The position numbers were made by a program, and so were the translations under genes. The notes beneath the pieces are model-generated. The model made no database searches. It saw nothing but the letters and a program-made list of their open reading frames with translations, and was not told the origin of the DNA. Shown here piece by piece: positions 12,701 through 49,192 of a DNA stretch of 49,701 bases. Location: the NCBI GenBank assembly GCA_017623455.1, contig JAGAPA010000051.1, forward strand, positions 1 through 49,701, in the 5' to 3' direction. The stretch comes from Clostridia bacterium (GTDB lineage: Bacteria; Bacillota; Clostridia; Christensenellales; Pumilibacteraceae). Within the stretch, counting starts at the first letter, position 1. Each line of letters begins with the position of its first letter.

Positions 12701-13756
12701 GTGCTTTATAACGGTTCTTACGTTGACGGAGTATTTGTTCCCACTTCAATCATTCAGTTCCCCTCCGGTTGTGATGTTGACAGATACGAGATGCCCGAAA
12801 CCGTTGGTTCTATCGCAGTTAACGCGTTCTCCAACGTAAAGAGAATCGGTACGTTCGTATTCAACAGCAAGATTGGTTGGGACGACAAGAACTACCACGG
12901 TGTTGATAAGGCATTTGAAAATGCAAACATCGAAAAGATCGAAATTCCCTCTCAGGCTGCATGGGTTATAGATAAGGACGAGGAAGGAAAAGAGATCCAC
13001 ACTCTTCAGCTTTATGCTGACGGCGTATCCTCTGATAAGCTCTACGATAACTCCAACGGTAAGTTTATCCTTGATAGCTACGGAATTTTGTACAGTGTAA
13101 ACATTGGTTCCGAAACCGTTTCTGTAGACGGTGCTACCACCACTACCAGATTCCTTAACTACTATCAGTTGATTTACGTTCCCACCGGAATTGATCTTAC
13201 AGGCAAAACGCTCACCATCCCCAACGAATGTACCGTAATGCCTTACGCATTCGCAGGTAACGATACTCTTGATACTATCGTTCTTGGAAGAAAGGTTTCC
13301 ATGGTTGCGCACTCCTTCGACGGATGTAAAGACCTTACCATCCTTTACCAGAGCGGTCGTGTAGACTACGAAGATATGGGATATCTCAACGAGAGCAACT
13401 TCGTTGACGCAAACGGAGAAGAAACCAATATCGCGTTCAAGAATGCGAAGGTATACTACTTCAGCGAGGATATGATCGAGTCCGATGAGTATAAGTTCTG
13501 GCACTACAAGAGCGCTCTTGACGATCAGACCGGCGCGCCCTTGACCTACGATTCTTCTGTAGACAGCAAAGTTCCCGCAGCTTTGAACGGAAGCCCCGTA
13601 ATCCATCAGGATAACGACCTCCTTGCTAACTACGGCTATGAGTATCAGCTCGCTGTAAACGAAGAAGGCGAATATTATCAGGATGCTGCAGGTAACTGGG
13701 TAATCCAGACCAACAACTTCGGCGAGAGCCAGTTCGTTATCGCATACTGGAACTAA
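9749..13756 (+). CDS. BspA-type leucine-rich repeat surface lipoprotein
   Basis: 1335 aa. Residues 1-23 are a lipoprotein signal peptide ending in the lipobox LPVGC, so Cys23 should be lipidated by Lgt and the protein anchored outside the membrane. Most of the rest is LRR_5 (BspA/Treponema type) repeats with the signature AF-CxxL--I-IP, as in AFQNCSELKEIVLDDSITSI. Several non-repeat insertions occur, for example around 505-540 and 770-860. There is no sortase motif. Codon choice is noticeably uniform (AAC, CTT, GTT, TTC preferred), as in the transketolase gene here, which suggests high expression (inference). BspA proteins bind host or other bacterial surface ligands in known cases; no ligand can be assigned here. 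Confidence 0.88.
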   Translation: MKKLSRIIMLVVLALVMLLPVGCTITPEKGSNGLVYELDLLTNTYTVVDYKAVEEDVKIEGRKILVKEVVIPSTFNGKPVAKIDVSAFAQKYTETRHDYQEYIDFSNDKLTLDTFKANNGDLCYYAKVQKVVIPASVKTIGDFAFQNCSELKEIVLDDSITSIGNSAFAGCTELTTLSLSGVQNAQTNQLPSGLKKISDGMFFKCSSLEEVYIPSSVTKIGKLAFASCYALEDVKIERANGDFAMVGSESEVDMTDKDGVAITSIDNYAFKDAVKMQYFNVPNSVKSFGVSVFEMPKPDDKNVNSKSSLIGVSFSDQIKELGSGMFKNCISLDEEKLDLSQIEKIGSGIFEGCTSLTSVQLNGMITAIPERAYYGCTGITTVDLTKYYDSETDSYLPTQVNYIGEAAFRGCSSLRSIELGNDETSKITDIKRYAFKDCPALRSIYIPLTAIRIDPRVFENSGGTVIYAKDIVGASATGEQIVRAPGWSNGSANIIENFVSVVKVADANGKIVAEYVILDKPGGEAPGQPNDPSDDYASLARYVDFDNTTYTVPATISYDSRDYLVEGILKSSFKNCDALEAIELDPVSQITKVESEAFANTTNVKSLDLSVTKVTAINERTFAYGKSLQSVILPADITEIKKSAFEGCSSIVNLDISSVSKVGKAVFKDCVSLETVKLGAITEFSEQMFYNASKLVNIQVADISKVTSIRARAFLGCSSLNETNFPTGVMTGLTIIDSEAFSGCSGYTTFAIPEKLKTIGGKAFSGCTGLASFTIDPLNVDFVVTEDNVLFKKKTVNLTVKYFLSESEIAVDAADAKSVKVPVEFYPELTYYPANSESSSLFIDMLNTYTFAQVYNIAKEANGGNDVYAVTSDLSNFRIFNRGKDYITADGTVHYVSANRSGKITAVTKNKAQVSGITDYVVGKIGDSGIIAYAFEGAANLEEIKIYGNVTIGTGAFNNCSKLTSIEVLKASNDDKYSNLNNDGVLYNGSYVDGVFVPTSIIQFPSGCDVDRYEMPETVGSIAVNAFSNVKRIGTFVFNSKIGWDDKNYHGVDKAFENANIEKIEIPSQAAWVIDKDEEGKEIHTLQLYADGVSSDKLYDNSNGKFILDSYGILYSVNIGSETVSVDGATTTTRFLNYYQLIYVPTGIDLTGKTLTIPNECTVMPYAFAGNDTLDTIVLGRKVSMVAHSFDGCKDLTILYQSGRVDYEDMGYLNESNFVDANGEETNIAFKNAKVYYFSEDMIESDEYKFWHYKSALDDQTGAPLTYDSSVDSKVPAALNGSPVIHQDNDLLANYGYEYQLAVNEEGEYYQDAAGNWVIQTNNFGESQFVIAYWN

Positions 13757-35558: not shown

Positions 35559-37007
35559 ATGAAAAGATTTTTTATTTTTCTTATAACTGTTACGATAGCG
35601 CTTTTTGCATTTCCTTTTACAGGATGTGTAAAGGATGAGGCAATAGGCAGAAGTTTTTACGATATAAAGGCGGTTTACGACGATACCGCTCACACCTTAA
35701 AGTGCAGTATGAACGTAAGCTACGTAAACAACAGCGATGCGATACTTGACGAGTTGTGCTTCCACTTATACCCCAACGCTTACCGCAAGGACGCGCAGTT
35801 TAAGGCGGTAGAGGAGAGTGTGAGAGAGGTTGCGTATCCGCATGGGGAGAGCGAGGGCAGAATAGACGTAGAAAGCGTAAAACGCAACGGCAAGGATAAC
35901 GAGTGGAGCATTGAGGGCATGGACGACGATATTTTAGTGGTTGCGCTCACTAAGGAGATAGAACCCACCGAACGCGTTGCGCTCGATATAGATTTTACCG
36001 TGTACATTCCTGAGGTAAGACACAGACTGGGCTGGGTGGGAGATACCGTAAACTTAGGTAATTGGTACCCTATAGCATGCGTAAAAACGCAGAGTGGTTT
36101 CGATACCTCGCCTTACTATAGTAACGGCGATCCGTTCTACTCCGATTGCAGTGATTACAAGCTCACTTTAACAGCGCCGTCTGCTTATACCGTGGCAATG
36201 CCGGGCAAGAGTGAGAGGAGAGAAAACGGAGTAAACGTGACCTATGTTTCCGTGCTTGAAAACGCACGTGATTATGCATTTGTTATCGGAAAGTTTGATA
36301 CGTTGTCGACAAAAGTGAACGGGGTCGATATAAATTACTATTACCTAAAGGATTCCGATGCGGAGAATACGCTTGCTTGCGCAAAGGACGCAATCGCGTT
36401 TTTCTCGGACAAATTCGGCGCGTATCCGTATAGTACGTACAACGTGGTGGAAACTCAGTTTGTGTACGGCGGAATGGAATATCCGTCCCTTGTGTATATC
36501 TCCGATACGCTCAATAAGAGCATGTGCAAAGAAGCAGTTATACACGAAACCGCGCACCAATGGTGGTACGGAGTGGTGGGCAACGATCAGATAAATCACG
36601 CTTGGATGGACGAGGGGCTTGCCGAGTACAGCACCACGCTTTTTTACGAGTTTAATCCTTCCTATAACGTAACGTACCGTCAGCGTATGGCGGACGCAAT
36701 GTCTGCGTATATCGTATACTGCGACGTAACCTCGTACGACGGAATAATGGAACGAAACATAGGCGAGTTTTCTGCGTTTGACTATACGTACGTAACCTAT
36801 CTTAAGGGCGCGCTCATGTTTGATGCGGTAAGAAAAACCGTGGGCGACGAGGCGTTTTTCCGTTCGCTTAAAAATTACAAAAAAGAGTATTCGTTTAAGA
36901 TAGCCTCCGTTCAAGGTCTTATAAACACGTTTGAAAATACGACCGGCAGGCAACTGAAAAACGTATTCGACAGCTTTTTGTACGGGGAGGCTAAGATATA
37001 CCGATGA
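35559..37007 (+). CDS. M1-family metallopeptidase, lipoprotein
   Basis: 482 aa. I start at ATG 35559, after AAAGGAGAAGG, because it begins a lipoprotein signal peptide (MKRFFIFLITVTIALFAFP) ending at the lipobox FTGC. The gluzincin zinc site HETAHQWWYG and downstream WMDEGLAEY give the HExxH-(18)-E pattern of M1 aminopeptidases; YGGMEYP replaces the usual GAMEN exopeptidase motif, as in many bacterial members. Lacks the long C-terminal helical domain of ApN. It is probably tethered outside to trim peptides. The last four bases (ATGA) overlap the amidase start. Confidence 0.88.
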   Translation: MKRFFIFLITVTIALFAFPFTGCVKDEAIGRSFYDIKAVYDDTAHTLKCSMNVSYVNNSDAILDELCFHLYPNAYRKDAQFKAVEESVREVAYPHGESEGRIDVESVKRNGKDNEWSIEGMDDDILVVALTKEIEPTERVALDIDFTVYIPEVRHRLGWVGDTVNLGNWYPIACVKTQSGFDTSPYYSNGDPFYSDCSDYKLTLTAPSAYTVAMPGKSERRENGVNVTYVSVLENARDYAFVIGKFDTLSTKVNGVDINYYYLKDSDAENTLACAKDAIAFFSDKFGAYPYSTYNVVETQFVYGGMEYPSLVYISDTLNKSMCKEAVIHETAHQWWYGVVGNDQINHAWMDEGLAEYSTTLFYEFNPSYNVTYRQRMADAMSAYIVYCDVTSYDGIMERNIGEFSAFDYTYVTYLKGALMFDAVRKTVGDEAFFRSLKNYKKEYSFKIASVQGLINTFENTTGRQLKNVFDSFLYGEAKIYR

Positions 37008-37699
37008 GAGTGTTTTTCGTAAGGGCAAAAACTCTTGTTGCGCTTGTTTTGGTAGCCGTTATTACCGCGCTTGCGTGCGTGGGGATAGTCAGGTACAAAC
37101 AGGCGGTGCAAGCGTCGAAAAACGGATACGTAATCGTTATAGACCCGGGACACGGCGGAGCGGACGGTGGAGTCGTTTCCTCGCAAAAAAAAGTCAAAGA
37201 GAGCGAAATTAATCTGTACGTATCCAAGATTTTAGCAAATACATTGTCAAGAAAGGGGTATACGGTAAAGCTTACGCGGAGCGCGGATATCGGGCTTTAC
37301 GAGGTGGGCGCAACTAATAAAAAGCTGTCGGATATGCAAAAGCGCAAGGAGATAATAAACGCAAGCAAGCCCGACCTTGTTATAAGTATTCATCAAAATC
37401 ATTTTCCGTCCTCTTCTGTCCATGGCGCGCACGTGTTTTATAGCGATAAGCAGGAAAGGAGCGAACAGTACGCAAAGATTTTTCAGCAAGACTTAAATGC
37501 GGAGCTTGAACAAAGCAAACAGTATAAAAAGGCGGACTATTACGTTTTGCAGTGTTCGCCATATCCGTCGTTGCTTATCGAGTGTGGTTTTTTGTCTAAT
37601 CCCACGGACGAGAGCAATCTGCTTACGGCTTCGTACAGAGAAAAGCTTGCAAAAATCATAGCGAAAAGCGTAGATAAAGTGTTTTTCGGTGAAGCGTAA
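37004..37699 (+). CDS. N-acetylmuramoyl-L-alanine amidase, CwlD-like (Amidase_3)
   Basis: 231 aa. A signal anchor (residues ~8-26, LVALVLVAVITALACVGIV) precedes an Amidase_3 zinc domain: DPGHGGADGG (first His), the Glu after VKESE, SIHQNHFPSS (second His) and LLIECGFLSNPTDESNLL (catalytic Glu). It cleaves the bond between MurNAc and L-Ala in peptidoglycan. CwlD of spore formers makes muramic-delta-lactam in cortex; whether this organism sporulates cannot be seen here. The ATGA overlap with the M1 peptidase gene indicates coupled expression. Confidence 0.88.
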   Translation: MRVFFVRAKTLVALVLVAVITALACVGIVRYKQAVQASKNGYVIVIDPGHGGADGGVVSSQKKVKESEINLYVSKILANTLSRKGYTVKLTRSADIGLYEVGATNKKLSDMQKRKEIINASKPDLVISIHQNHFPSSSVHGAHVFYSDKQERSEQYAKIFQQDLNAELEQSKQYKKADYYVLQCSPYPSLLIECGFLSNPTDESNLLTASYREKLAKIIAKSVDKVFFGEA

Positions 37700-37824
37700 A
37701 TAAAGAAAAATGTCGGAATTTGTCGAATGTGCGCCGTAATCCGTCTAAAACTGTGGTGTGTATTGATTATTTCTGCTCGAAATGGTAAAATTTTTCCAAA
37801 GTACCGTCAATGAGGCTAAAACAC

Positions 37825-37854
37825 TTGCAAAAAAAGCACGTTTTGTAGTACAAT
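37825..37854 (+). promoter_or_regulatory. Promoter of the zinc-ribbon membrane protein gene
   Basis: TTGCAA, 18 bp, TACAAT, 31 bp before ATG 37886, which follows GCGGAGG. Confidence 0.6.
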
Positions 37855-37885
37855 AGAAAATGACGGAAACGAGCGGAGGTAGATT

Positions 37886-38191
37886 ATGTACTGTAAATAT
37901 TGTGGTAACGATATAGGTGATGCGGTTTTTTGCCCTAACTGTAACAAGCAGTCGGGCTATGACGTTTTGCTTAGCGATGCAACCCATTACGATCAGGTTA
38001 AGAAGGTAGATGACGTTCCCAATATCTTCCTTATTATCCTTGCATTTTTTATACCTCTTTTCGGATTTATCTACTATTTTACGCAAATAAGCAAGTACAA
38101 GGTTAAGTCCAGAGCATACGGAATTTCCGCTCTCGTAAGCGTAGGCGTTAACGTAGTAGTGCTCGTGCTGATGCTACTGATGATAATTTAG
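37886..38191 (+). CDS. Small zinc-ribbon membrane protein
   Basis: 101 aa. Residues 1-22 are a zinc ribbon with two CxxC knuckles (MYCKYCG and FCPNCNK). A polar segment follows, then two membrane helices (~46-65, IFLIILAFFIPLFGFIYYF, and ~79-100). It belongs to the large group of clostridial zinc_ribbon_2 small membrane proteins with unknown role. Own promoter, strong ribosome site. Unlike the TIR protein at 41014, which also starts with a zinc ribbon, it has no further domain. Confidence 0.8.
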   Translation: MYCKYCGNDIGDAVFCPNCNKQSGYDVLLSDATHYDQVKKVDDVPNIFLIILAFFIPLFGFIYYFTQISKYKVKSRAYGISALVSVGVNVVVLVLMLLMII

Positions 38192-38237
38192 CTTCAACGT
38201 ATTTTAGAAAAATTTATCTTTATCAAGGAGAAAGAAT

Positions 38238-40205
38238 ATGAACAACATTCAACAGCTTACCGTAAACGCAATTCGCGCACTTTCCAGCGAAGGCATTGAC
38301 AAGGCAAACAGCGGACACCCCGGACTTCCTTTGGGTTGCGCAACAATCGGATACACTCTTTATTCCGAGATCTTAAAGCACAACCCCAAGCATCCCGACT
38401 TTTTCAACCGTGACAGATTCGTGCTTTCCGCAGGTCACGGCTCTATGCTTTTGTACACGCTTTTGCACGTGTTTGGCTATGACGTGAGCATGGACGATCT
38501 TAAATCCTTCCGCCAAGCCGGCAGCAAAACTCCCGGACATCCCGAGTACGGCGTAACCCCCGGCGTAGAGGTTTCTACAGGTCCTTTGGGACAGGGTATC
38601 GCAAACGCAGTAGGTCTTGCGGTTGCAGAAAGCGTTATGGCGGCTAAGTACAACAAGGAAGGCTACAACGTTGTGGATCACTATACCTACGCGCTCTGCG
38701 GTGACGGCTGTATGCAAGAAGGTATCGAGTACGAGGCGGCTTCCATTGCAGGAACTTGGAAGCTTGGTAAGCTTATCGTAATTTATGATAAGAACAACAT
38801 CACAATCGAAGGCAGTACCGATATCGCGTTTACTGAGGACGTTGGCGCACGCCACGAGGCTCAGGGCTGGCAGGTATTAAAAGTTGCGGACGGAGAGGAC
38901 GTTGACGCGCTTATCAATGCGGTAAACGAAGCAAAGGCAGAAAAGGACAAGCCCTCGCTCATTATCGTAAGAACCCAGATAGGAAAGGGTTCTAAAAAGG
39001 AAGGAAGCGCAGACTGCCACGGTTCTCCCTTAGGCTCTGCTCTTACTGAGGAAATGAAGAAAGATATGGGATATAACTATCCTCCCTTCACCGTGCCCGA
39101 AGAGGTTAAAGCTCACGTTGCTTCCCTTCAGAGCAAGTACGACGCATACTACGAGGATTGGCGCGCTCTTATGAAAGAGTACAGCAAGAATTTCCCCGAG
39201 GATGCAATCCAGCTTAACAAGGACGTTGCAAACGATTATAGCAATATCGATATTTTCGACGGTTTGTGGGAAAACGCACCCAAGGCAGAAGCTACACGTA
39301 ATTCGAGCGGTGCAGTGCTTAACAAGGTTGCAAAGATCGTTACCAACCTTATCGGCGGAGCTGCAGACCTTGCGCCCTCTACCAAAACTTATATGAAGGA
39401 TCTCGGCGACTATTTTGCAGGAAGCAGAACGGGCAGAAATATGCACTTTGGAATCCGTGAGCACGCAATGAGCGCTATCTGTAACGGAATTCAGCTTCAC
39501 GGCGGTCTTAACGCATTCTGTTCCACTTTCTTCGTGTTCAGCGACTATATGAAAAACGCAATGCGTATGAGCGCAATTATGAGCTTGCCCGTAACGTACG
39601 TGCTTACTCACGACAGTATCGGCGTAGGCGAAGACGGCCCCACTCACGAGCCTGTAGAACAGCTTGCAGGACTTCGCGCAATGCCCAACCTTAACGTATT
39701 CCGTCCTGCTGACAGAAGAGAAACAGTTGCTGCTTACGTTACTGCAATCACAAGCGGAAAGCCCACTTGTATCGTATGCTCACGTCAGGATCTCGTTCAG
39801 CTTGACAAGAGCGGTAAGGAAGCGCTTAAGGGCGGTTACGTCGTATACGGCGAGGGTACTCCCGATATCATTCTTATCGGTGCAGGTAGCGAAGTAGGTC
39901 TTTGCATGGAATCTGCTAAGGTTCTTGAAAGCGAAGGCGTAAAGGTTCGCGTTGTATCCATGCCCTGTATCGAAGTGTTTGAAAAGCAGAGCGAAGAGTA
40001 TAAGAACTCCGTATTGCCCAAGTCCGTAACTCGCAGAGTTGCAGTAGAAGCAGGCGTTACCATGCCTTGGTATAAGTTCGTTGGTCTTGACGGAAAGGTT
40101 ATCGGTCTTGACTCGTTTGGCGAGAGCGGTAAGCCCGAGGTTTTGATGCAGAAGTTCGGCTTTACGGTTGACAACGTTGTAAAAGCAGCTAAGGAAATAT
40201 TATAA
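38238..40205 (+). CDS. tkt: Transketolase
   Basis: 655 aa, full length. It moves two-carbon ketol units between pentose-phosphate pathway sugars with thiamine diphosphate and Mg2+. Seen: ANSGHPGLPLG near the N terminus, the ThDP/Mg motif CGDGCMQEGIEYEAASIAGTW, KNNITIEG, and the pyrimidine-domain HDSIGVGEDGPTHEPVEQL. A C-terminal transketolase_C domain ends at GESGKPEVLMQKFG. Start ATG after AAGGAGAAAG. Codon use is strongly biased, as expected for an abundant enzyme. Pentoses released by the GH127 enzyme would feed this step. Confidence 0.96.
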   Translation: MNNIQQLTVNAIRALSSEGIDKANSGHPGLPLGCATIGYTLYSEILKHNPKHPDFFNRDRFVLSAGHGSMLLYTLLHVFGYDVSMDDLKSFRQAGSKTPGHPEYGVTPGVEVSTGPLGQGIANAVGLAVAESVMAAKYNKEGYNVVDHYTYALCGDGCMQEGIEYEAASIAGTWKLGKLIVIYDKNNITIEGSTDIAFTEDVGARHEAQGWQVLKVADGEDVDALINAVNEAKAEKDKPSLIIVRTQIGKGSKKEGSADCHGSPLGSALTEEMKKDMGYNYPPFTVPEEVKAHVASLQSKYDAYYEDWRALMKEYSKNFPEDAIQLNKDVANDYSNIDIFDGLWENAPKAEATRNSSGAVLNKVAKIVTNLIGGAADLAPSTKTYMKDLGDYFAGSRTGRNMHFGIREHAMSAICNGIQLHGGLNAFCSTFFVFSDYMKNAMRMSAIMSLPVTYVLTHDSIGVGEDGPTHEPVEQLAGLRAMPNLNVFRPADRRETVAAYVTAITSGKPTCIVCSRQDLVQLDKSGKEALKGGYVVYGEGTPDIILIGAGSEVGLCMESAKVLESEGVKVRVVSMPCIEVFEKQSEEYKNSVLPKSVTRRVAVEAGVTMPWYKFVGLDGKVIGLDSFGESGKPEVLMQKFGFTVDNVVKAAKEIL

Positions 40206-40374
40206 AATAATCTGTACTGTATGCAGTATACGGCTTGAAATTTTTGTGAGAGCCGAACCTTGCGATAAAAAGCTCGACAGTCACCAACGCTTTGCAACGT
40301 GAATCAGAGCAACGCAAAGCCGTGGCAAGACGGCTATTCGCCCACTGCTTACACAAACATCAAGGAGAAAACAA
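40206..40374 (+). promoter_or_regulatory. Structured leader, class unknown
   Basis: 169 bp with successive hairpins: TACTG-CAGTA, CGGCT...AGCCG, GCTTTGC...GCAAAGC with an 18-nt loop, and CCGT...ACGG, then AAGGAG before ATG 40375. No riboswitch consensus I know fits. It could include the transketolase 3' end, but no U tract follows any stem. Confidence 0.3.
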
Positions 40375-40809
40375 ATGAGCAAAAGACAAGAAAGAGCGGT
40401 AATGCTCTACAAAAGCGGATATAACTGTGCGCAAGCCGTGGCTATTGCTTACTGTGACGTGCTTGGAATGACCGAAGAAAAGGCAGGAGCTGTATTTTCG
40501 GGCTTTGGCGGAGGCTTTGGCGGTCAGCACGAAGTGTGCGGAGCGGTTTCTGCTATGACTGCCGTGCTTGGTGCATTGCTTGACGTAAAGGACGGCGATG
40601 CCGAGGGTAAAAAGAAGATTTATTCCCGTGTTCAGAACGCTTGTAAGGACTTTAAGAAAGAGCACGAAAGCATTATCTGTCGTACCTTGCTCGTAAATGC
40701 AAAAAAGGTAGACGAAAGCCCCAAGCCCTGCTCGCATTACATAACATCTTGCTGTGCAATCTTGGATGCATCCATCGGCAAAAACAGCCCCTTTACCGAA
40801 AAAGACTAA
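40375..40809 (+). CDS. C_GCAxxG_C_C family protein
   Basis: 144 aa. The family signature is present: GYNCAQAVAIAYCD at residues ~15-28 (C-x2-AV and C) and EVCGAVSAMTAVLGAL at ~59-74 (CGAxSA), then further Cys near the end (CSHYITSCCAIL). The paired Cys pattern suggests a redox-active or metal-binding helical bundle; the biochemical role is not established. Start after AAGGAG. It follows transketolase with a 169-bp leader, so may be transcribed from it or separately. Confidence 0.85.
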   Translation: MSKRQERAVMLYKSGYNCAQAVAIAYCDVLGMTEEKAGAVFSGFGGGFGGQHEVCGAVSAMTAVLGALLDVKDGDAEGKKKIYSRVQNACKDFKKEHESIICRTLLVNAKKVDESPKPCSHYITSCCAILDASIGKNSPFTEKD

Positions 40810-40847
40810 TACGTATATACGTTTTTTGTACAAAACCACAAAAATTT

Positions 40848-40882
40848 CCCCGACCTATCCTCACCGATAAGTCGGGGTTTTT
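40848..40882 (+). terminator. Intrinsic terminator
   Basis: CCCCGAC-TATC pairs with GATA-GTCGGGG, followed by a T run. Confidence 0.9.
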
Positions 40883-40913
40883 ATTAAAAAAGCTGATAAT
40901 TTTTTATATATGT

Positions 40914-40942
40914 TTGACAAATAGTATAGTATAGTGTAAAAT
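40914..40942 (+). promoter_or_regulatory. Strong promoter of the TIR-LRR gene
   Basis: TTGACA, 17 bp, TAAAAT. The gene thus has its own promoter between two terminators (40848, 44158). Confidence 0.8.
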
Positions 40943-41013
40943 TATAGTATAAACTGTTCGCGGATCGTCTTATTCCGCAAACATGAATATTTACACAAAA
41001 GGAACGAAAACCA

Positions 41014-44000
41014 ATGAGTTTTTACTGTAAAAACTGCGGAACAGAACTTGAAAACGTAGACGGACAAAAAACAGCCGTTTGCGATTTTTGCGGTATGGAG
41101 CAAACTTTGCCCACCGCGGACGATCCGCAAAAATTAGAGCTTTTTGCAAAGGCTAACGACTACCGCATTGCAAGCAGATTCGACCTTGCAAAAAAGCAGT
41201 ACGAAAGCATAATCGCGCAGTACCCCGACGACAACGAAGCGTACTGGTGCAAGCTCTTGTGCGTATACGGTATCGAGTACGTAGAAGATTCCCTTACCGA
41301 AAAGAAGCTTCCCACCTGTCACAGAACGGTAACGGAAAGCATTTTCGACAACAGCGAATACAAGCTCATTATGTCAAGAGCTACCGCGGAAGAAAAAGCA
41401 ATCTACGAAGCGGAGGCTAAAGAGATCGACCGCATCCAAAAGGAAATCCTTGCAAAAGCGGACAAGGAAGAGCCGTACGACATCTTTATTTGCTATAAGG
41501 AAACAGAGATCGACGGCAAAAAAAGAACGTTAGACGCACAGCACGCAACCAAGATTTACACATACCTTACCGAACACGGCTACAAGGTGTTCTTTTCGCG
41601 TATAACCTTAAAAGGTAAGCTTGGCAGTGAGTACGAGCCCGTCATTTACTCTGCGCTAAAGTCTGCAAAAGTAATGCTCCACGTAACAACGAGCGCAGAG
41701 CATACGAACGCGCCGTGGGTAAGAAACGAGTGGAGCAGGTTCTTGGAGTTTATGAACGCGGACGTAACCAAAACCATTCTCCCCTGTATTGCGCAAATGG
41801 GTCCATACGAGCTTCCCGACGAGCTTTCTAAGTTCCAGGTGGCGTACGTGACCGACCTTGATTTTCATGAGAATTTACTGCTTCAAATAAACAAAAAATT
41901 CGGTAGATACGTGGAGGTAAAAAAGGCAGAGCCTGTCACGGTTACCCCCATACGTAGTGAGCAAAGTCCGACACAAACAACTAATAATGCTACGATACAA
42001 CCCCTACTTAAGAGAATAAATATCTTTCTTATCAACAGCGAATGGGAAAAGGCGGACGAGTATGCCGAAAAGGTATTGGACATAGAACCCGAATGTGGCG
42101 ATGCGTACCTTGCAAAAATCTTTGCAAAACTAAGAGTGAAAAGCCTTGATGAGGTTAGCGACAGCTTTGATTGGGAAACGGATAAGGATTATAAAACAGC
42201 AAAGCTTTATGCTGATGCAAGCTTAGGGGCAAAGCTTGCAACCTTCGAGAAAAAATGCTATTACATAAAAGCCTTGCCTTTATTTAATTCCGATTTAACG
42301 GTAGATAAAAACTACAAAAAAGCCAAGGAACTTCTTACAAAAGCCGATGATTACAAGGACGCAAAACAGCTTTTGGAAAGCTTATCCACAAGGCGACAAG
42401 AACAGCTTGACGCTAAAATCTTAGCTGAAAAGAAGAGAAATTACGAGCTTGCTTTGACGCTTATTAGCTCAGACCTTACTAATGACGAAACGTACGAAGA
42501 AGCAAAGCAGTACCTTAAAAAAGCCGATGACTACAAGGACGCAAAACAGCTTTTAGAAACCTTGCCACAAAGAAAGCAGGAACAGATTAATGCTAAGATT
42601 TTAGCCGAAAAGAAGCGTAAATATGAGCTTGCCATACCCCTTCTTAAAACCGATTTAACGGTTGACGAAAACTACAAAAAAGCGGTAGATTTGCTTAAAA
42701 AAGCGGATGATTATAAGGATGCAAAACAGCTTTTGGAAAATTTGCCTAAGCTTAGAGCAGAGCAGGAAAAAGCAAAGTATTACAAGTGTGCTTTGCTCTT
42801 GCTTAAAACTGATTTAACTGATGAGGAAAATTATAAAAAAGCCGAAGATTTGCTTGCAAAGGCAGATGACTATAAGGATGCCAAACAGCTTCTTAAGAAA
42901 ATAATAGCAGAAAGAGAAGGGTTTTTAAGACAGCAAAGAAGAAAGAAAAAACAAACTCGTTTGTTTGTGATTTTATCAGCCGTTCTTGCAATTATTATCG
43001 CAACTGTTATAACAATCATTTGCGTAACAGACTACAATGCAAGAGATGGTCTTAAGATGCAACTACAGGGAGATTACTATGTGGTAACGGGAATTGACGG
43101 AAACGCCAAATCCTCTTACAAAATCCCCTCCACCTATCAAGGAAAACCCGTAAAAGAGATAGGAAGTTCTGCGTTCTCTAGTTGCGATAATTTAACAAGC
43201 ATAGAAATCCCTGACAGCGTAACAAGTATAGGAGAATTGGCGTTCTGGTGGTGCACAAGTTTAACAAGCATAGAGATTCCTGACAGTGTAACAAGTATAG
43301 GAAATGGTGCGTTCTGGTGTTGCGATAGTTTAACAAGCATAGAAATTCCTGCAAGCGTAACAAGTATAGAAAGTTCTGCTTTCTCTAGTTGTGATAGTTT
43401 AACAAGCATAGAAATCCCTGACAGTGTAACAAGTATAGGAATGAGTGTGTTCGATAGTTGCTCTAAATTAACAAGTATAACGTTTGGAGAAAATAGCAAG
43501 TTAACAAGTATAGGAAGTGACGTGTTCTCTAATTGCATAAGTTTAACAAGCATAGAAATTCCTGACAGTGTAACAAGTATAGGAGGAAGTGCGTTCGATA
43601 GTTGCTCTAAATTAACAAGTATAACGTTTGGAGAAAATAGCAAGTTAACAAGTATAGGATATAGAGCGTTCGGTGATTGCTCAAGTTTAACAAGCATAGA
43701 AATTCCTGACAGTGTAACAAGTATAGGAATTTATACGTTCTATGATTGCACAAGTTTAGCAAGCATAGAAATTCCTGACAGTGTAACAAGTATAGGAAGT
43801 AGTGTTTTCTATAATTGCTCAAGTTTAACAAGCATAGAAATCCCTAACAGCGTAACAAGTATAGGATATAGAGCGTTCTCTGGTTGCGATAGTTTAACAA
43901 GCATAGAAATCCCTGACAGTGTAACAAGTATAGAAGAAAGTGCGTTCTCTCATTGCAAAAGTTTAACAAGCATAAAAATTCCTAAAAGCGTAACAAGTAT

Positions 44001-44130
44001 AGGAGGTTATGCGTTCAGTACTTGCAGTAAGCTTACAATATACTGTGAGGTAGCAAGAGAGCCTAGCGGTTGGGATAGTAAATGGAATTCTTCATACCGT
44101 CCTGTTGTTTGGGATTATAAGAATAAGTAG
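41014..44130 (+). CDS. Zinc ribbon-TIR-helical repeat-TM-LRR protein
   Basis: 1038 aa. Order: zinc ribbon (Cys5, Cys8, Cys23, Cys26); a helical part; TIR domain ~150-295, starting at Tyr155 (YDIFICYKETE), with the candidate catalytic Glu in GSEYEPVIYSALKSA (Glu208, or Glu206) and APWVRNEW as the late motif; helical repeats ~320-640 built on the motif KADDYKDAKQLLE (four copies, ~60 residues apart); a basic stop (RRKKKQTR) and one membrane helix ~650-670; then 13 BspA-type LRRs to the end. Basic residues before the helix predict N-in, C-out: TIR inside, LRR outside. TIR domains often cleave NAD+ or signal; LRRs bind ligands. A sensor role is inference. Monocistronic. Confidence 0.85.
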   Translation: MSFYCKNCGTELENVDGQKTAVCDFCGMEQTLPTADDPQKLELFAKANDYRIASRFDLAKKQYESIIAQYPDDNEAYWCKLLCVYGIEYVEDSLTEKKLPTCHRTVTESIFDNSEYKLIMSRATAEEKAIYEAEAKEIDRIQKEILAKADKEEPYDIFICYKETEIDGKKRTLDAQHATKIYTYLTEHGYKVFFSRITLKGKLGSEYEPVIYSALKSAKVMLHVTTSAEHTNAPWVRNEWSRFLEFMNADVTKTILPCIAQMGPYELPDELSKFQVAYVTDLDFHENLLLQINKKFGRYVEVKKAEPVTVTPIRSEQSPTQTTNNATIQPLLKRINIFLINSEWEKADEYAEKVLDIEPECGDAYLAKIFAKLRVKSLDEVSDSFDWETDKDYKTAKLYADASLGAKLATFEKKCYYIKALPLFNSDLTVDKNYKKAKELLTKADDYKDAKQLLESLSTRRQEQLDAKILAEKKRNYELALTLISSDLTNDETYEEAKQYLKKADDYKDAKQLLETLPQRKQEQINAKILAEKKRKYELAIPLLKTDLTVDENYKKAVDLLKKADDYKDAKQLLENLPKLRAEQEKAKYYKCALLLLKTDLTDEENYKKAEDLLAKADDYKDAKQLLKKIIAEREGFLRQQRRKKKQTRLFVILSAVLAIIIATVITIICVTDYNARDGLKMQLQGDYYVVTGIDGNAKSSYKIPSTYQGKPVKEIGSSAFSSCDNLTSIEIPDSVTSIGELAFWWCTSLTSIEIPDSVTSIGNGAFWCCDSLTSIEIPASVTSIESSAFSSCDSLTSIEIPDSVTSIGMSVFDSCSKLTSITFGENSKLTSIGSDVFSNCISLTSIEIPDSVTSIGGSAFDSCSKLTSITFGENSKLTSIGYRAFGDCSSLTSIEIPDSVTSIGIYTFYDCTSLASIEIPDSVTSIGSSVFYNCSSLTSIEIPNSVTSIGYRAFSGCDSLTSIEIPDSVTSIEESAFSHCKSLTSIKIPKSVTSIGGYAFSTCSKLTIYCEVAREPSGWDSKWNSSYRPVVWDYKNK
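43180..44035 (+). repeat. LRR-coding DNA repeats (69-bp units)
   Basis: The 13 LRR units share long DNA identity, with TTTAACAAGCATAGAAAT and GACAGTGTAACAAGTATAGG recurring every ~69 bp; two units carry the same inserted block (TTTGGAGAAAATAGCAAG). Low divergence at silent sites suggests recent tandem expansion or gene conversion. Confidence 0.85.
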
Positions 44131-44157
44131 TGATTTTTAGATGTAAACTAAATAAAA

Positions 44158-44194
44158 AGACCTCTGTCGGTGGTTGTACCGTTGGAGGTTTTTG
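44158..44194 (+). terminator. Intrinsic terminator of the TIR-LRR gene
   Basis: ACCTC-CGGT pairs with ACCG-GAGGT, followed by TTTTTG. Confidence 0.8.
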
Positions 44195-44287
44195 TTTTAG
44201 TGGGAATGTGGTTATTTAACTTTCGTTTGGAAATTCTCACGCTTAGGCTCAAGCTGATGTAGGGCGTGGTTGGTGAGGATGATAGGG

Positions 44288-44313
44288 ATTGCCACGCTTA
44301 CGCTCGCAATGAC
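44288..44313. repeat. GTCATTGCGAGCG dispersed repeat
   Basis: On the minus strand GTCATTGCGAGCGTAAGCG-GGCAAT, closely matching 49279-49307. ATTGC and GCAAT can form a hairpin. Confidence 0.6.
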
Positions 44314-44321
44314 GTTGTGTC

Positions 44322-45125
44322 TTATTTATTTGTAACGCTGTTTTTGTCGTTTTTGGGTACACAGCCTAAAAACTTTTTGTATTGGCGGTAAAAGGTGGAG
44401 TAGTCGGAATAGTTACATTGCTCGCAGGCTTGTGTGGGCGTGAGCCCGTTGTTTATCAAGAACTGCGCGTAAAGAATACGTTTTTTGTTTACGTAATCCA
44501 TAAAGCTTATATCAAGATGAGTCTTAAAGGTATGCACTATCCAAGACGAGCTTACGAAAAACTCATCCGCAATTTTTTGCGCGGTAATTTTTTCGGTCGG
44601 GTGCTGATCGATATACTCCAAAATCCGCTCGATGACCTTGTTGGTTTTAAGCGGTTTTATCTCTTTTTCGTCCACAAACACGGACAAGAGCGTGATAACG
44701 GACTTGAAAATCTCCTTTTGCGTTTCCTCAATGTCCGCAATCGTGTTGTCAAGACAAATCTTTTTCCATTCGTCCATAAGCCCGTATATGGGGTGAGTGA
44801 GGGGAATATTATATACGTCGCGCGCGTTTTTGAAAAACTCCTTGCTTATCTTAGGGATAAAGTCCTCAGAAAAATTGAAGACGAATCGCTCGTAAGGAAC
44901 GGATTTATCCACGACTTTAACGCTGTGATACGTAAAAGGCTTGGCGATGAAAAGATCGCCTTTTTTCATTTTGTACACATTACCACCCATAATCATTTGC
45001 ACGTTTCCTTGCAAAAAATACAAAATCTCGTAGGTGTTGTGAATGTGGTTCGCGTAGTCTTTTTGGTCGGGAATTCCCCTAAAAGAATACGACGATTTGT
45101 AGATGTGAATGTTGTTTTCTTCCAT
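44322..45125 (-). CDS. AraC-family transcriptional regulator
   Basis: 267 aa from ATG 45125. Cupin sensor half (NHIHNTYEILYFLQGNVQM, MKKGDLFIAKPFTYHSV) and C-terminal double HTH (ITAQKIADEFFVSSSWIVHTFK, then ACEQCNYSDYSTFYRQYKK). The longer frame to 45155 passes through the promoter: on this strand the -10 TATAAT ends only 9 bases before ATG 45125, so the mRNA would have almost no leader and there is no Shine-Dalgarno. Divergent from the sugar operon at 45253, its likely target. Ligand unknown. Confidence 0.87.
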   Translation of the reverse strand: MEENNIHIYKSSYSFRGIPDQKDYANHIHNTYEILYFLQGNVQMIMGGNVYKMKKGDLFIAKPFTYHSVKVVDKSVPYERFVFNFSEDFIPKISKEFFKNARDVYNIPLTHPIYGLMDEWKKICLDNTIADIEETQKEIFKSVITLLSVFVDEKEIKPLKTNKVIERILEYIDQHPTEKITAQKIADEFFVSSSWIVHTFKTHLDISFMDYVNKKRILYAQFLINNGLTPTQACEQCNYSDYSTFYRQYKKFLGCVPKNDKNSVTNK

Positions 45126-45134
45126 AATACTTTT

Positions 45135-45163
45135 ATTATACACCATATTTGCCAAATTTGCAA
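45135..45163 (-). promoter_or_regulatory. Promoter giving an apparently leaderless AraC mRNA
   Basis: Minus strand TTGCAA, 17 bp, TATAAT; transcription should begin 0-3 bases before ATG 45125. Confidence 0.65.
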
Positions 45164-45204
45164 TAAAATCTGCTTATTTTGCTATTAACTTTTATTTTAG
45201 GCAA

Positions 45205-45213
45205 TGATATAAT
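45205..45213 (+). promoter_or_regulatory. Extended -10 promoter of sugar operon 2
   Basis: TGATATAAT (extended -10) without a good -35, as at activator-dependent promoters; 39 bp before ATG 45253. Confidence 0.55.
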
Positions 45214-45252
45214 ATGTATAATCTCAAAATATATTAAGGAGTAAAATAGAAA

Positions 45253-46104
45253 ATGATAAAACTTTGTGCTTTTGCGGACGAGAGCAGTGGAAAGCTTGAC
45301 GGACAGATTGACGCTCTTCTTCGCAACAACATTCCGTACCTTGAAATAAGAGGTGTGGACGGCAAGAATGTTGCTGACCTTACCGAAGAGGAAGCGAAAG
45401 CGATATACGAAAAGCTGAGCGCAAACGGGCTTGCGGTGTGGTCGATAGGCTCTCCGCTTGGCAAGGTAAACGTGGACGTTAACTTTGACGAATACTTAAA
45501 AAAAGTAGAGCACGTGTGTAAGATCGCAAATATTTTGCAAGCAAAGCAAATCCGTTGCTTTAGCTTTTTCAAGGCGTACGAAAATAGGGAAAAAGTGCTT
45601 GAATATATGAAAAAAATGGTGGACGTAGGCGCAAAATACGGAATATTGATGTGCCACGAAAACGAAAAGGACATCTACGGCGATACGTTGGAGCGAACGG
45701 TGGATATTTTGGATAACGTAAAAGGTCTTGAGTGCGTATACGACCCTGCAAACTTTTTACAGGTGGGCGAGAGCGACAGTAACAAAACGCTTGACGCATT
45801 GCATTCAAGAGCGCATTATTTCCACATAAAAGACGTAATTTCCGCAACGGGCGAGCTCGTGCCGGCTGGCGAGGGTGACGGAAATATCGACAAGCTTGTA
45901 GCTAATATCAAGGACGATAAAGTGCTCACCTTAGAGCCTCACCTTGCCATCTTCGATTCGTACAAGAGTATTGACGATACCGAAATGAAGAATAAGTACG
46001 TGTTTAGTAGCAACGAGGAAGCGTTTGATTGCGCTGTAAACTCACTTAAAAAGATTTTAATTAAAAACGGATACAAAGAAATTAAAGGAGCGTTTGTAAA
46101 ATAA
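45253..46104 (+). CDS. Sugar phosphate isomerase/epimerase-like TIM barrel protein
   Basis: 283 aa, xylose-isomerase-like (AP_endonuc_2) TIM barrel. Metal-site strands visible: IPYLEIRGVDG (Glu), LMCHENEKDIYGD (His/Glu), CVYDPANFLQVG (Asp), YFHIKDV (His) and LTLEPHL (Glu). Such proteins isomerise, epimerise or, in some operons with Gfo/Idh partners, cleave keto-sugars. First gene of the operon; its TAA overlaps the next ATG by one base. AAGGAG sits 10-11 bases from the ATG. Paralogous in fold, not close in sequence, to the next gene. Confidence 0.85.
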   Translation: MIKLCAFADESSGKLDGQIDALLRNNIPYLEIRGVDGKNVADLTEEEAKAIYEKLSANGLAVWSIGSPLGKVNVDVNFDEYLKKVEHVCKIANILQAKQIRCFSFFKAYENREKVLEYMKKMVDVGAKYGILMCHENEKDIYGDTLERTVDILDNVKGLECVYDPANFLQVGESDSNKTLDALHSRAHYFHIKDVISATGELVPAGEGDGNIDKLVANIKDDKVLTLEPHLAIFDSYKSIDDTEMKNKYVFSSNEEAFDCAVNSLKKILIKNGYKEIKGAFVK

Positions 46105-46865
46105 TGAAAGCAGGACTTAATTTATATTCTATAAGAAACCTTATTAAAACGGAAGAAGATTTTCTTGACACGGCAAAAAAGCTTAAGGCTATGGGTTACG
46201 ACTACATTCAGTATTCGGGCGGACCATACGACCCCGAAATGATAAAAAGAGTAAGCGAGGCAAGCGGACTTCCCGTAGTTCTTACTCACGTGCCTATGGA
46301 TAGAATTATCAACGATACCGACAAGCTTATGGAAGAGCATGCGTCGTTTGGTTGCTATAATATCGGTCTTGGCGCAATGCCCGGCGATATTATCGTAGAC
46401 GAGGCAAAGTGCAAGGAAACGATTGCAAAGCTTGACGATGCAGGAAAGAGAATGAAAGAAAAGGGCTTCAAGTTCTTCTATCACAACCACCACATCGAAT
46501 TTTATAAGCATAACGGACAAACAGTTTTCGATTATATGATCGAAAATGCGCCCAATATCAACTTTACCGCGGACACTTATTGGTTGCAGTTTGGCGGTGT
46601 AAATATTTTGGACTATCTTGACAAGCTTAAGGGCAGAATCGAGTGCGTTCACCTTAAAGATTACGGTGTGTTCAAAAGGGATAACTGGTTCGAGCCCAAG
46701 TTTACCTCGGTAGGCGACGGCAATATCGATTTTGTAAAAGTAGTAGCGAAGATGAAAGAGCTTGGCGTAAAGTATTATCTCGTAGAGCAAGACAACGCAG
46801 CGGATTTACCCGACACGCTTGCGCCTATTGAGAGAAGCATTAAGTATATCAACAACAAACTTTAA
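46104..46865 (+). CDS. Sugar phosphate isomerase/epimerase-like TIM barrel protein
   Basis: 253 aa, same superfamily as its neighbour. Metal-site strands: FFYHNHHIEF, FTADTYWLQFGG, CVHLKDYG and YLVEQDNA. Similar proteins appear as YcjR/IolE-like members next to Gfo/Idh/MocA dehydrogenases, where 3-keto-sugars are made and transformed. The start TAATG overlap implies translation coupled to the preceding gene. Expected to be cytosolic and metal-dependent; substrate unknown. Confidence 0.85.
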   Translation: MKAGLNLYSIRNLIKTEEDFLDTAKKLKAMGYDYIQYSGGPYDPEMIKRVSEASGLPVVLTHVPMDRIINDTDKLMEEHASFGCYNIGLGAMPGDIIVDEAKCKETIAKLDDAGKRMKEKGFKFFYHNHHIEFYKHNGQTVFDYMIENAPNINFTADTYWLQFGGVNILDYLDKLKGRIECVHLKDYGVFKRDNWFEPKFTSVGDGNIDFVKVVAKMKELGVKYYLVEQDNAADLPDTLAPIERSIKYINNKL

Positions 46866-46879
46866 TAAGGAGATTAATT

Positions 46880-48046
46880 ATGGAAAAGGTAAGATATGGA
46901 ATTATCGGTCTTGGAAACCAAGGCTCGAGCTATATGTACAATATTTTTGATAAGAACAAGATTGACGGCGCGGTAGTATCCGCGTGCTGTGATAACAATC
47001 CTGCAAAGATCGAGGCAATGAAAGCAAAAACAAGCAATAAAGACGTTGTTTACTTTGCAGATTATAAAGAAATGCTCGATAGCGGACTTGTGGATGCGGT
47101 TCTTATCGAAGTTCCACACTATCAGCACCCCGAAATGGTTATGGAGTGCCTAAAGCGTGATATTCACGTTATTTCCGAAAAACCTGCAGGCGTTTATACT
47201 AAGCAGGTTAAGGAAATGAACGAGTACGCAAAGGACAAGAAAGCGTTGTTTGGAATGATGTTCAATCAGCGTACAAATTGCTTGTATAGAAAAATGAAAG
47301 AAATGATAGCTAACGGTGCTATTGGCGAGCTTCAGAGAGTAAACTGGGTTATCACTAACTGGTTCAGAACTCAACATTATTACGATAGCGGTGCTTGGCG
47401 TGCTACCTGGAGAGGGGAAGGCGGTGGCGTTCTGTTCAATCAGTGTCCTCACCAGATCGACCTTGTTCAGTGGGTAGTTGGCGAAATGCCAATATCGGTT
47501 ACGGCTCACCTTTCATACGGCAGATGGCATGATATAGAAGTAGAAGACGACGTTACTGCTATATTTAAGTATAAAAACGGCGCAACGGGCGTGTTTGTAA
47601 CAAGTACGAGTGAAACGCCCGGCGTAAATAGATTTGAAATTTCGGGAACAAAGGGTAGACTTGTAGCGGAAGAGGGCAAACTTATTTACTACAAGAACAA
47701 GATTGATACATTAGAACAAATCAAGACTGCAACTGAAGGATTTGTCGCACCTAACTTTGAAAAAATCGAAGTGGAAACTGACGGCAAGTACCCACAGCAC
47801 GCAGGAATTATTCAAAACTTTACAAACGCAATCCTTGGCAAAGAAGAAGTGTTTGCGCTTGGTGTAGACGGATACAACGGCGTTGCTCTTATGGACGCTA
47901 TGCAACTTTCCGGATGGAAGAACGGAGCGGAAGTTCCCCTTCCCTTTGACGATGACGAATACCTTGCTATCCTTAACGAGAAGATTAAAACTTCGCGCTT
48001 AAAGGAAGTTGAAGATAAGGTTGCTAACACCGCAGGAACTTATTAA
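46880..48046 (+). CDS. Gfo/Idh/MocA-family oxidoreductase
   Basis: 388 aa. Rossmann start RYGIIGLGNQGSSYMYN, conserved VISEKPAG (Lys-Pro catalytic motif), and the C-terminal substrate helix GGGVLFNQCPHQIDLVQW with the catalytic His/Asp pair. An NAD(P)-dependent sugar or inositol dehydrogenase is expected. AAGGAG ribosome site, 14 bp after the isomerase. The YDSGAWRATWRGEGGG segment closely matches the fourth gene of the operon, so the two are paralogues that may handle successive or reverse steps. Confidence 0.9.
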   Translation: MEKVRYGIIGLGNQGSSYMYNIFDKNKIDGAVVSACCDNNPAKIEAMKAKTSNKDVVYFADYKEMLDSGLVDAVLIEVPHYQHPEMVMECLKRDIHVISEKPAGVYTKQVKEMNEYAKDKKALFGMMFNQRTNCLYRKMKEMIANGAIGELQRVNWVITNWFRTQHYYDSGAWRATWRGEGGGVLFNQCPHQIDLVQWVVGEMPISVTAHLSYGRWHDIEVEDDVTAIFKYKNGATGVFVTSTSETPGVNRFEISGTKGRLVAEEGKLIYYKNKIDTLEQIKTATEGFVAPNFEKIEVETDGKYPQHAGIIQNFTNAILGKEEVFALGVDGYNGVALMDAMQLSGWKNGAEVPLPFDDDEYLAILNEKIKTSRLKEVEDKVANTAGTY

Positions 48047-48127
48047 AAAACGGCATTTGTAACATTTTTTGAGCAAACGTATTCGACTTTTTAAGACAAT
48101 ACGGCTTGAAAAAAGGAGGAAACTACT

Positions 48128-49087
48128 ATGAAATGCGCAGTAATAGGGTTAGGCGTTATAGGAAAAGTTCATTGCGAAATCATACAAGCGCAAGCCGATC
48201 TTGTAGCCGTGTGCGATATCGACGAGAGTAAGTTCGATTTATATCCCGACACTTTGCATTACACCGATTATAAGAAAATGCTAAAAGAGGTAAGACCTGA
48301 CGTCGTGCATATTTGTACACCGCATTACTTGCATACTTCTATGACGGTTTTTGCATTAGGTGAGAATATCAACGTGTTTTGCGAAAAGCCTTTATGTATA
48401 GATAAGAACGATATTTCCAAGATTTTGGACGCGGAAAAACGCTCTAAGGCGATACTGGGCGTGAGCATGCAAAACAGATATAACGCGAGCAACCTTTTCG
48501 TAAAAGAGTACCTAAAAGACAAGAAAATAAAAGGCGCAATGGGTTATATGGCGTGGAATAGAGATATAAACTATTACAATAGCGGAGCGTGGCGTGGTAA
48601 ATGGGCAACCGAAGGCGGTGGCGTGCTTATCAATCAGGCGCTTCACACCTTCGATTTAATGCAGTGGTTTACGTCCTATCCTCAATCTATAACTGCAAAA
48701 ATTTCCAACATCTCGCTTCTCGGTAAAATCGAAGTTGAGGACACCGTTTCCGTTGTGGCGGATTGTGGCGATTATAAGTTCAACTTCTTTGCCACAAACA
48801 GCAACTCAACCAACCTTCCCGTACAAATTACAGTAAGCACGGATCAGGGAAATATTACCGTAATGGACGAAAACGTGCTTGTAAACGGCGAACTCAAAGT
48901 ACTGTCTAACAGCGACAGGTTTTACGGTAAGCATTGTTACGGAAGCGGTCACGAGTTTATAATAAAGGACTTTTACGACTGCATAAAAACGGGCAGAAAG
49001 TTTGCGCTCGACGGAGCGGAAGCTAGTAAGGTTATAAAAATGATACTTGCAACCTACTCTAGCAACGGTGAAGCGGTAAAAATTTAA
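48128..49087 (+). CDS. Gfo/Idh/MocA-family oxidoreductase
   Basis: 319 aa. Rossmann start CAVIGLGVIGKVHCEI, motif VFCEKPLC and catalytic region GGGVLINQALHTFDLMQWF. Shares NSGAWRGKWATEGGG with the preceding gene and is shorter at the C terminus. Strong AAGGAGG ribosome site after an 81-bp gap. Last gene of sugar operon 2. A two-dehydrogenase arrangement suits oxidation of a hydroxyl, isomerisation or cleavage, and re-reduction (inference). Confidence 0.9.
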   Translation: MKCAVIGLGVIGKVHCEIIQAQADLVAVCDIDESKFDLYPDTLHYTDYKKMLKEVRPDVVHICTPHYLHTSMTVFALGENINVFCEKPLCIDKNDISKILDAEKRSKAILGVSMQNRYNASNLFVKEYLKDKKIKGAMGYMAWNRDINYYNSGAWRGKWATEGGGVLINQALHTFDLMQWFTSYPQSITAKISNISLLGKIEVEDTVSVVADCGDYKFNFFATNSNSTNLPVQITVSTDQGNITVMDENVLVNGELKVLSNSDRFYGKHCYGSGHEFIIKDFYDCIKTGRKFALDGAEASKVIKMILATYSSNGEAVKI

Positions 49088-49092
49088 CAACT

Positions 49093-49130
49093 AAACTACG
49101 GAGCAAACTTAAATTGTTCCGTAGTTTTTT
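49093..49130 (+). terminator. Intrinsic terminator of sugar operon 2
   Basis: AAACTACGGA pairs with TCCGTAGTTT across an AT-rich loop and ends in a T run. Confidence 0.85.
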
Positions 49131-49192
49131 ATATAACCCCCAACCACACACACCACTCTCGCTCCCACCAATTGTACGGACGATTCACTCCT

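Follow-up and report, generated by a model that had tools for sequence, protein, structure and literature searches.

A TIR protein with a predicted outer leucine-rich repeat sensor belongs to a modular family of putative bacterial receptors

Most TIR effectors described from bacteria are alarm enzymes that act inside the cell, and the solved structures of BspA-like leucine-rich repeat (LRR) proteins are not known to carry a TIR half. We analyzed a window (the whole stretch of DNA under study, 49,701 nucleotides of contig JAGAPA010000051.1, assembly GCA_017623455.1) from a Clostridia bacterium of the Pumilibacteraceae, in which positions 41014..44130 (+) encode a 1038-aa protein composed of a zinc ribbon, a TPR-like unit, a TIR domain, helical repeats, one predicted membrane helix and an LRR array. 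Toll and the Toll-like receptors, in the portion of PMC7075850 that describes them, likewise comprise an LRR ectodomain, one membrane helix and a cytosolic TIR domain. The order of the parts is not that of these receptors: in the window protein the LRR array is C-terminal to the helix and the TIR domain (residues 154-298) N-terminal to it, with the predicted sidedness the same. Further differences are its BspA-type LRRs, the zinc ribbon and TPR ahead of the TIR domain, and an LRR part that is exchangeable. The resemblance to Toll is one of layout, not of descent; given the opposite order and the different LRRs, it probably reflects convergence. If the reading set out below is true, and TIR domains are linked across the membrane to outer sensors that can be exchanged, Toll-like surface receptors exist also in bacteria.

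Other described systems share one half of this design. SPARTA TIR-APAZ, SARM1 and AbTir have the same TIR fold, with a conserved Glu at the site expected from SARM1, whereas the window TIR domain is joined via the predicted membrane helix to a predicted outer sensor, and its NADase activity is putative. BspA-like surface LRR proteins (4fs7, 4gt6, TpLRR 6mlx) match in LRR sequence and fold but have no TIR half, as is also the case for a BspA-type open reading frame (ORF) of the window (9749-13756), which gave no TIR_2 match. Conflict systems based on diversity-generating retroelements (DGRs; Thiohalocapsa PB-PSB1, and the VMAP and iSTAND ternary systems with FGS domains) link an effector, TIR among others, to a retroelement-hypermutated C-type-lectin sensor, and Thiohalocapsa DGR 2 has a target with CHAT and TIR, according to sections of PMC10907252 and PMC7159879. 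Unlike these, the window family consists of Bacillota TIR proteins with DUF6273 as the lectin-like end, its front end also occurs with LRR or RCC1-like ends, and we noticed no NTPase or vWA partner beside the window gene. Two-part immunity proteins of the TRADD-N/EACC1 type, as partly covered in PMC8195603, pair a constant part with a highly variable C-terminus, placed outside with transmembrane helices or inside; the constant part of the window family differs from theirs and itself contains the TIR domain. We did not find a zinc-ribbon-TIR family ending in an outer LRR, DUF6273 or RCC1-like module described in the open-licence literature.

The protein can be followed along the plus strand as a succession of distinct parts. 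The N-terminal zinc ribbon (41026..41091; Cys 5, 8, 23 and 26, putatively zinc-binding) is followed by a TPR-like unit (41143..41247, residues 44-77; Pfam TPR_14, E 0.0012, with helices in the model) and the TIR domain (41473..41907). Helical repeats with the motif KADDYKDAKQLLE, read by eye, occupy approximately 42250..42910. The basic flank QRRKKKQTRL (42934..42963), predicted to lie on the inner side, leads into the single predicted membrane helix (42964..43020, residues 651-669; Kyte-Doolittle mean 3.04), and a BspA-type LRR array of 13 [AVT]F..C units (43120..44037) completes the chain; both LRR_5 repeats and an LRR fold were found in this C-terminus. The anatomy drawn in the first-pass annotation, namely TIR, membrane helix and LRR in one chain, with a TIR fold at 150-295, a predicted helix at 650-670 and 13 LRRs after it, was thus borne out.

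The TIR domain was recognized within the PDB by structure only, the nearest being the SPARTA and SARM1 TIRs; a 19-row front-end profile gave no match to PDB sequences at E 0.1. Within the motif YEPVIYSAL lies Glu208 (41635..41637), the candidate catalytic glutamate, which we take by motif, rather than by a residue-level structural match, to correspond to the SARM1 catalytic Glu. It is invariant in all 19 copies from the window's own genome, in 62 of 62 front ends and in two sets of full-length relatives (51/51 and 51/51; the sets overlap). The four zinc-ribbon Cys are equally invariant in the 19 copies and the 62 alignment rows. The conservation of Glu208 is compatible with NADase activity but no proof of it.

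We then assessed membrane topology for 121 proteins (19 own copies and 102 complete relatives) by a hydropathy script and the positive-inside rule rather than a trained predictor. The window protein showed one Kyte-Doolittle peak, with seven K/R in the N-side flank and two in the C-side flank, predicting an N-in orientation, and no N-terminal hydrophobic segment was found by hydropathy. One helix after residue 300 was present in 51 of the 121 proteins, 43 of them with at least 60 residues beyond it; in these 43, K/R were in excess on the N side in 42, equal in one and fewer in none, consistently across unrelated C-terminal modules. The sidedness proposed in the first-pass annotation, TIR inside and LRR outside, is accordingly also what the family predicts. 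Helix-free members account for 35 of the 102 relatives and 8 of the 19 own copies, and members with at least two helices for 23/102 and 4/19, respectively.

The own genome (G000; 2.4 Mb, 96 contigs, 77.6% complete) contains 20 TIR_2 matches, 19 of which have the common zinc-ribbon-TPR-TIR front end, at 60-89% identity to the window protein. Contig ends remove the first residues of L024 and the last of L015; contigs C65 and C81 each end in a further partial copy of the front end, and a DUF6273 frame on C95 (L029) has its front part cut off by the contig end. The C-termini of the 19 copies fall into LRR (6), DUF6273 (7), polytopic membrane (4) and other (2) types. The LRR type comprises the window protein, L021, L015, L023 and L009, all with a helix, and L013, with none above threshold. 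DUF6273 ends are found without a helix in L018, L019, L014_2046, L020, L011 and L012, and with one in L025; the polytopic copies are L014_12474, L022, L017 and L024, and the remaining two L016 and L010. In a tree with four outgroup rows, the 19 own copies formed one clade (100/100). Inside it, a seven-member clade (100/99), with forks mostly unresolved, mixes four LRR and three DUF6273 proteins, indicating that near-identical TIR front ends carry either an outer LRR or a DUF6273 without a predicted helix.

These results place the window protein in a family that is one of modular TIR receptors, mostly in Bacillota. It combines a constant front end, a helical-repeat stalk, one helix predicted to be N-in and a predicted outer LRR solenoid, with sensors swapped among about 20 paralogs. 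The first-pass annotation had proposed a surface sensor transmitting to a TIR effector; at the level of sequence prediction that layout stands, while the notion of a single inverted receptor gives way to membership in a modular family. Whether the window protein is a signal-anchor membrane receptor whose TIR signaling would be triggered by ligand we regard as evenly balanced. In the mechanism we envisage, the ligand of the LRR array (in sisters, of the DUF6273 or RCC1-like end) would be of non-self origin, for instance phage particles, competitors or host surfaces, and its binding would cluster the receptor chains. The clustered TIR domains would form an assembly that either cleaves NAD+ or produces cyclic ADP-ribose as a signal; the cell might then arrest or die, halting the spread of phage, or respond in another way. 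Helix-free sisters would survey the cytosol with the same TIR effector. Our best reading of the family is as a repertoire of modular TIR receptors that probably serves defence or the recognition of non-self, with ligand, NADase activity and defensive role being what we infer.

The same data bear on two other uses of an outer LRR. If the protein served bacteria to recognize kin or non-self on contact with one another, the LRR would read surface proteins of neighbors and the TIR domain would signal, with no phage role. Expansion in one lineage with swapped ends would suit such a system, as would the many other BspA LRR stretches that might serve as partners (54 LRR_5 matches, some in TIR proteins, plus the window ORF 9749-13756); however, six of the seven DUF6273 sisters are without a predicted helix and so would not read neighbors, and we consider this explanation unlikely. 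Somewhat less likely still is a surface adhesin whose LRR binds host or substrate, with the TIR domain as a non-enzymatic scaffold that organizes the inner face together with the helical repeats: what is conserved is the TIR front end, in which Glu208 is invariant, whereas unrelated modules, some of them in helix-free proteins, take the place of the LRR.

Relatives of the modular TIR receptors were found in other genomes. In the same GTDB family, 28 of 74 genomes had a match, with 22 matches in G000 and one to three in each of the other 27, some weak or partial. An even sample of the class gave some match in 55 of 391 genomes and one with E below 1e-80 in 21 of 391, own genome included; at most five candidates were scored per genome, so that copy numbers are minimum values. 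Among named genomes we found at least 573 pattern stretches, 538 of which encode relatives, and the best 80 of these 538 resolved into 77 loci, 75 of them Bacillota by title and the other two titled Phycisphaerales and Chloroflexi. Most are from metagenome-assembled genomes, many with animal-gut sources in their titles; the few isolates include Ruminococcus flavefaciens MC2020 and YRD2003 and Lachnospiraceae NE2001 and AC2031, in which related genes are open to study. Pfam searches of 102 complete relatives gave TIR_2 in 102, DUF6273 in 19, RCC1_2 in 16, LRR_5 in three, SH3_3 in two and ankyrin in one. The domain order of the window protein, whose occurrence elsewhere the first-pass annotation had suggested searching for, recurs in its paralogs and, outside the own genome, in L043, L052, L101 and the contig-cut L094, with a short array in L110. 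RCC1-like repeats (AGxxHTVGLKxDGTVVAVG) form the C-terminus at nine loci (L034, L050, L053, L054, L067, L068, L076, L088, L102), in eight of the nine beyond a predicted membrane helix. At least three front ends or pieces occur together at at least nine loci (L033, L036, L056, L057, L063, L079, L083, L089, L092). Some pathogen TIRs interfere with host TIR signaling, and the animal-gut sources of many relatives would fit a host-directed effector of this kind. We regard such a role as very improbable: the window protein has no N-terminal hydrophobic segment, its TIR domain is predicted to be in the bacterial cytosol, and the front end is common to helix-free members.

We further examined the DUF6273 ends, a domain resembling the C-type lectin fold and a known DGR target in phages, as stated in parts of PMC10743442 and PMC11792537. 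A codon test covered seven own domains chosen as the most alike, from L011, L014_2046, L018, L019 and the contig-cut L029 (C47, C3, C13, C95); four of 11 domains (L030, L012 and two of L020) were left out, and L016 was missed by the stricter regular expression. Over the last ~34 codons, pairwise changes at codon positions 1/2/3 numbered 257/262/115, versus 434/401/861 upstream. The third-base share of differences, 0.18, was outside all 86 upstream windows (0.42-0.60), and with all 11 domains the contrast was weaker (0.34 vs 0.49 upstream). A low third-base share is what one would expect if AAY codons of a template had been rewritten. In the own genome, at the completeness given above, a search with one pattern and at most three mismatches returned no DGR template, and the only PF00078 match (C14:578-1042) was a 531-aa reverse transcriptase (RT) with no SQ motif by eye. 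This RT (L028, 125-1717) has an RYVDD motif, is not obviously of DGR type and may function in defence; a comparable RYVDD stretch occurs in genome G083 (L146). One in-frame TGA interrupts the DUF6273 stretch of the TIR-TM-DUF6273 paralog L025 (2705-5368, G000 C86; TM, transmembrane helix).

Relatives' genomes supplied a template. An RT was present in nine of the 14 searched, with an SQ motif in three RT loci (L143, L144, L152), and a search for template-variable pairs within the relatives' DUF6273 loci turned up only variable-region pairs. When 19 variable regions were compared with the 15 RT loci, a single template proved to lie in the same genome as its gene (L106 vs L144); three poorer matches to the L144 template came from other genomes. 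In this genome, G087, L106 (9992-12673) encodes a zinc ribbon-TIR-TM-DUF6273 protein, and the template with its SQ-type RT (L153, 160-1510) is on a different contig, the template ~160 nt before a 355-aa RT frame with GLPLGNQTSQW and YMDD. Across 127 nt, a span chosen after viewing the alignment, the L106 variable region has 17 mismatches to the template, 16 of them at template A (38/127 are A; hypergeometric P 3.8e-9); the 120-nt core fixed beforehand has 20 mismatches, 16 at A. This concentration at adenines indicates that a TIR-TM-DUF6273 receptor of the family is very probably a DGR target in G087, and thus in at least one of the 14 genomes searched. The larger stretches around L143 and L152 (L154, L155) did not match the G087 template, the sole template compared. 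A second zinc ribbon-TM-DUF6273 protein, L166, without TIR, matched that template more poorly (38 mismatches, 16 not at A).

We also examined variation in the LRR proteins. By eye, the LRR codons that vary in the window protein differ at the third base as well, and Trp and Glu codons are among them. In the six own LRR proteins, 37 LRR units fit a regular expression (10 of 13 in the window protein), which by its own terms restricts nine of the 23 positions. At the free positions, 5, 6, 8, 12, 14, 15 and 17 were nearly fixed, whereas 2, 18, 19, 22 and 23 varied most and 11 and 3 to a lesser extent. Repeat number varies among paralogs, and the variation fits repeat-array turnover.

Taken together, one genome may hold an immune-receptor repertoire of about 20 receptors with a constant TIR half, lectin-like sensors hypermutated by a retroelement, LRR sensors diversified by repeat turnover, and some sensors outside (LRR) and some inside (DUF6273). 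This is a tentative proposal, which we hold with clearly less confidence than the membrane-receptor assignment. It would be a bacterial counterpart of receptor families with constant and variable parts, for instance the lamprey variable lymphocyte receptors, with a Toll-like effector attached. Whether such a diversified system operates can be put to the test in the ~20 paralogs, whose sensors are swapped and, for one kind of sensor, hypermutated. Several observations weigh against the membrane-receptor reading and a defensive role. C-terminal type changed at least eight times on the tree, against a shuffled mean of 10.1 (17 of 300 shuffles were as low), so that swapping is constrained to some degree. 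The near-identity of the LRR repeats could result from repeat homogenization alone. A conserved Glu is not always paired with reported TIR activity, by the account in part of PMC7075850. No family match was found in 50,697 phage and 72,556 plasmid records, which argues against typical mobile defence cargo; among viral contigs, one relative (L170) occurred in 132 pattern stretches. The sole PADLOC 2.0.0 match was weak (PycTM, E 5.8e-5) and covered residues 494-593 in the helical part. The window neighbors, named by eye from translations rather than by family search (transketolase, AraC-type regulator, and sugar-isomerase- and oxidoreductase-like ORFs), do not suggest a defence island.

Finally, we compared the locus with that of a same-genus genome (G059, 94% complete), in which the family is matched only weakly, by one zinc-ribbon stretch (E 1.1e-4). 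By blastn against its contig C20, the two are colinear at 37003-40799 and 44365-49133, at 80-89% identity, while 40800..44364 is absent, with ~116 bp in its place. Such flanks point to gain of a lone gene here or loss there rather than to a contaminating contig. A chimeric gene or a foreign contig might be suspected in a draft of 96 contigs at 77.6% completeness, the more so with the gene absent from the same-genus site. Yet the colinearity holds on both sides, the layout recurs in L021, L015, L023 and L009 and in the other genomes (L043, L052, L094, L101, L110), and isolates also carry the family; for the layout an artefact is largely refuted, and overall we give it hardly any credence. A promoter-like TTGACA-17-TAAAAT precedes the gene at 40914..40942 (+; by eye). 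Comparison of 18 copies (all but L024, which lies at a contig end) showed upstream sequence shared among several; the regions upstream of L021 2684 and L025 2762 are related (75% over 104 nt), each with a hairpin and T-run just 5' of the start codon (by eye), a possible attenuator or the terminator of an upstream gene. Elsewhere in the window, the product of the ORF at 9749-13756 is a large LRR protein of BspA type whose N-terminus, by eye, resembles that of a lipoprotein (LLPVGC), and LRR_5 also occurs in other own-genome frames, one of them of 3605 aa on C42. A 186-aa antisense ORF (43137-43697, −) mirrors the LRR repeats of the window protein and is probably a by-product of their repeat codons.
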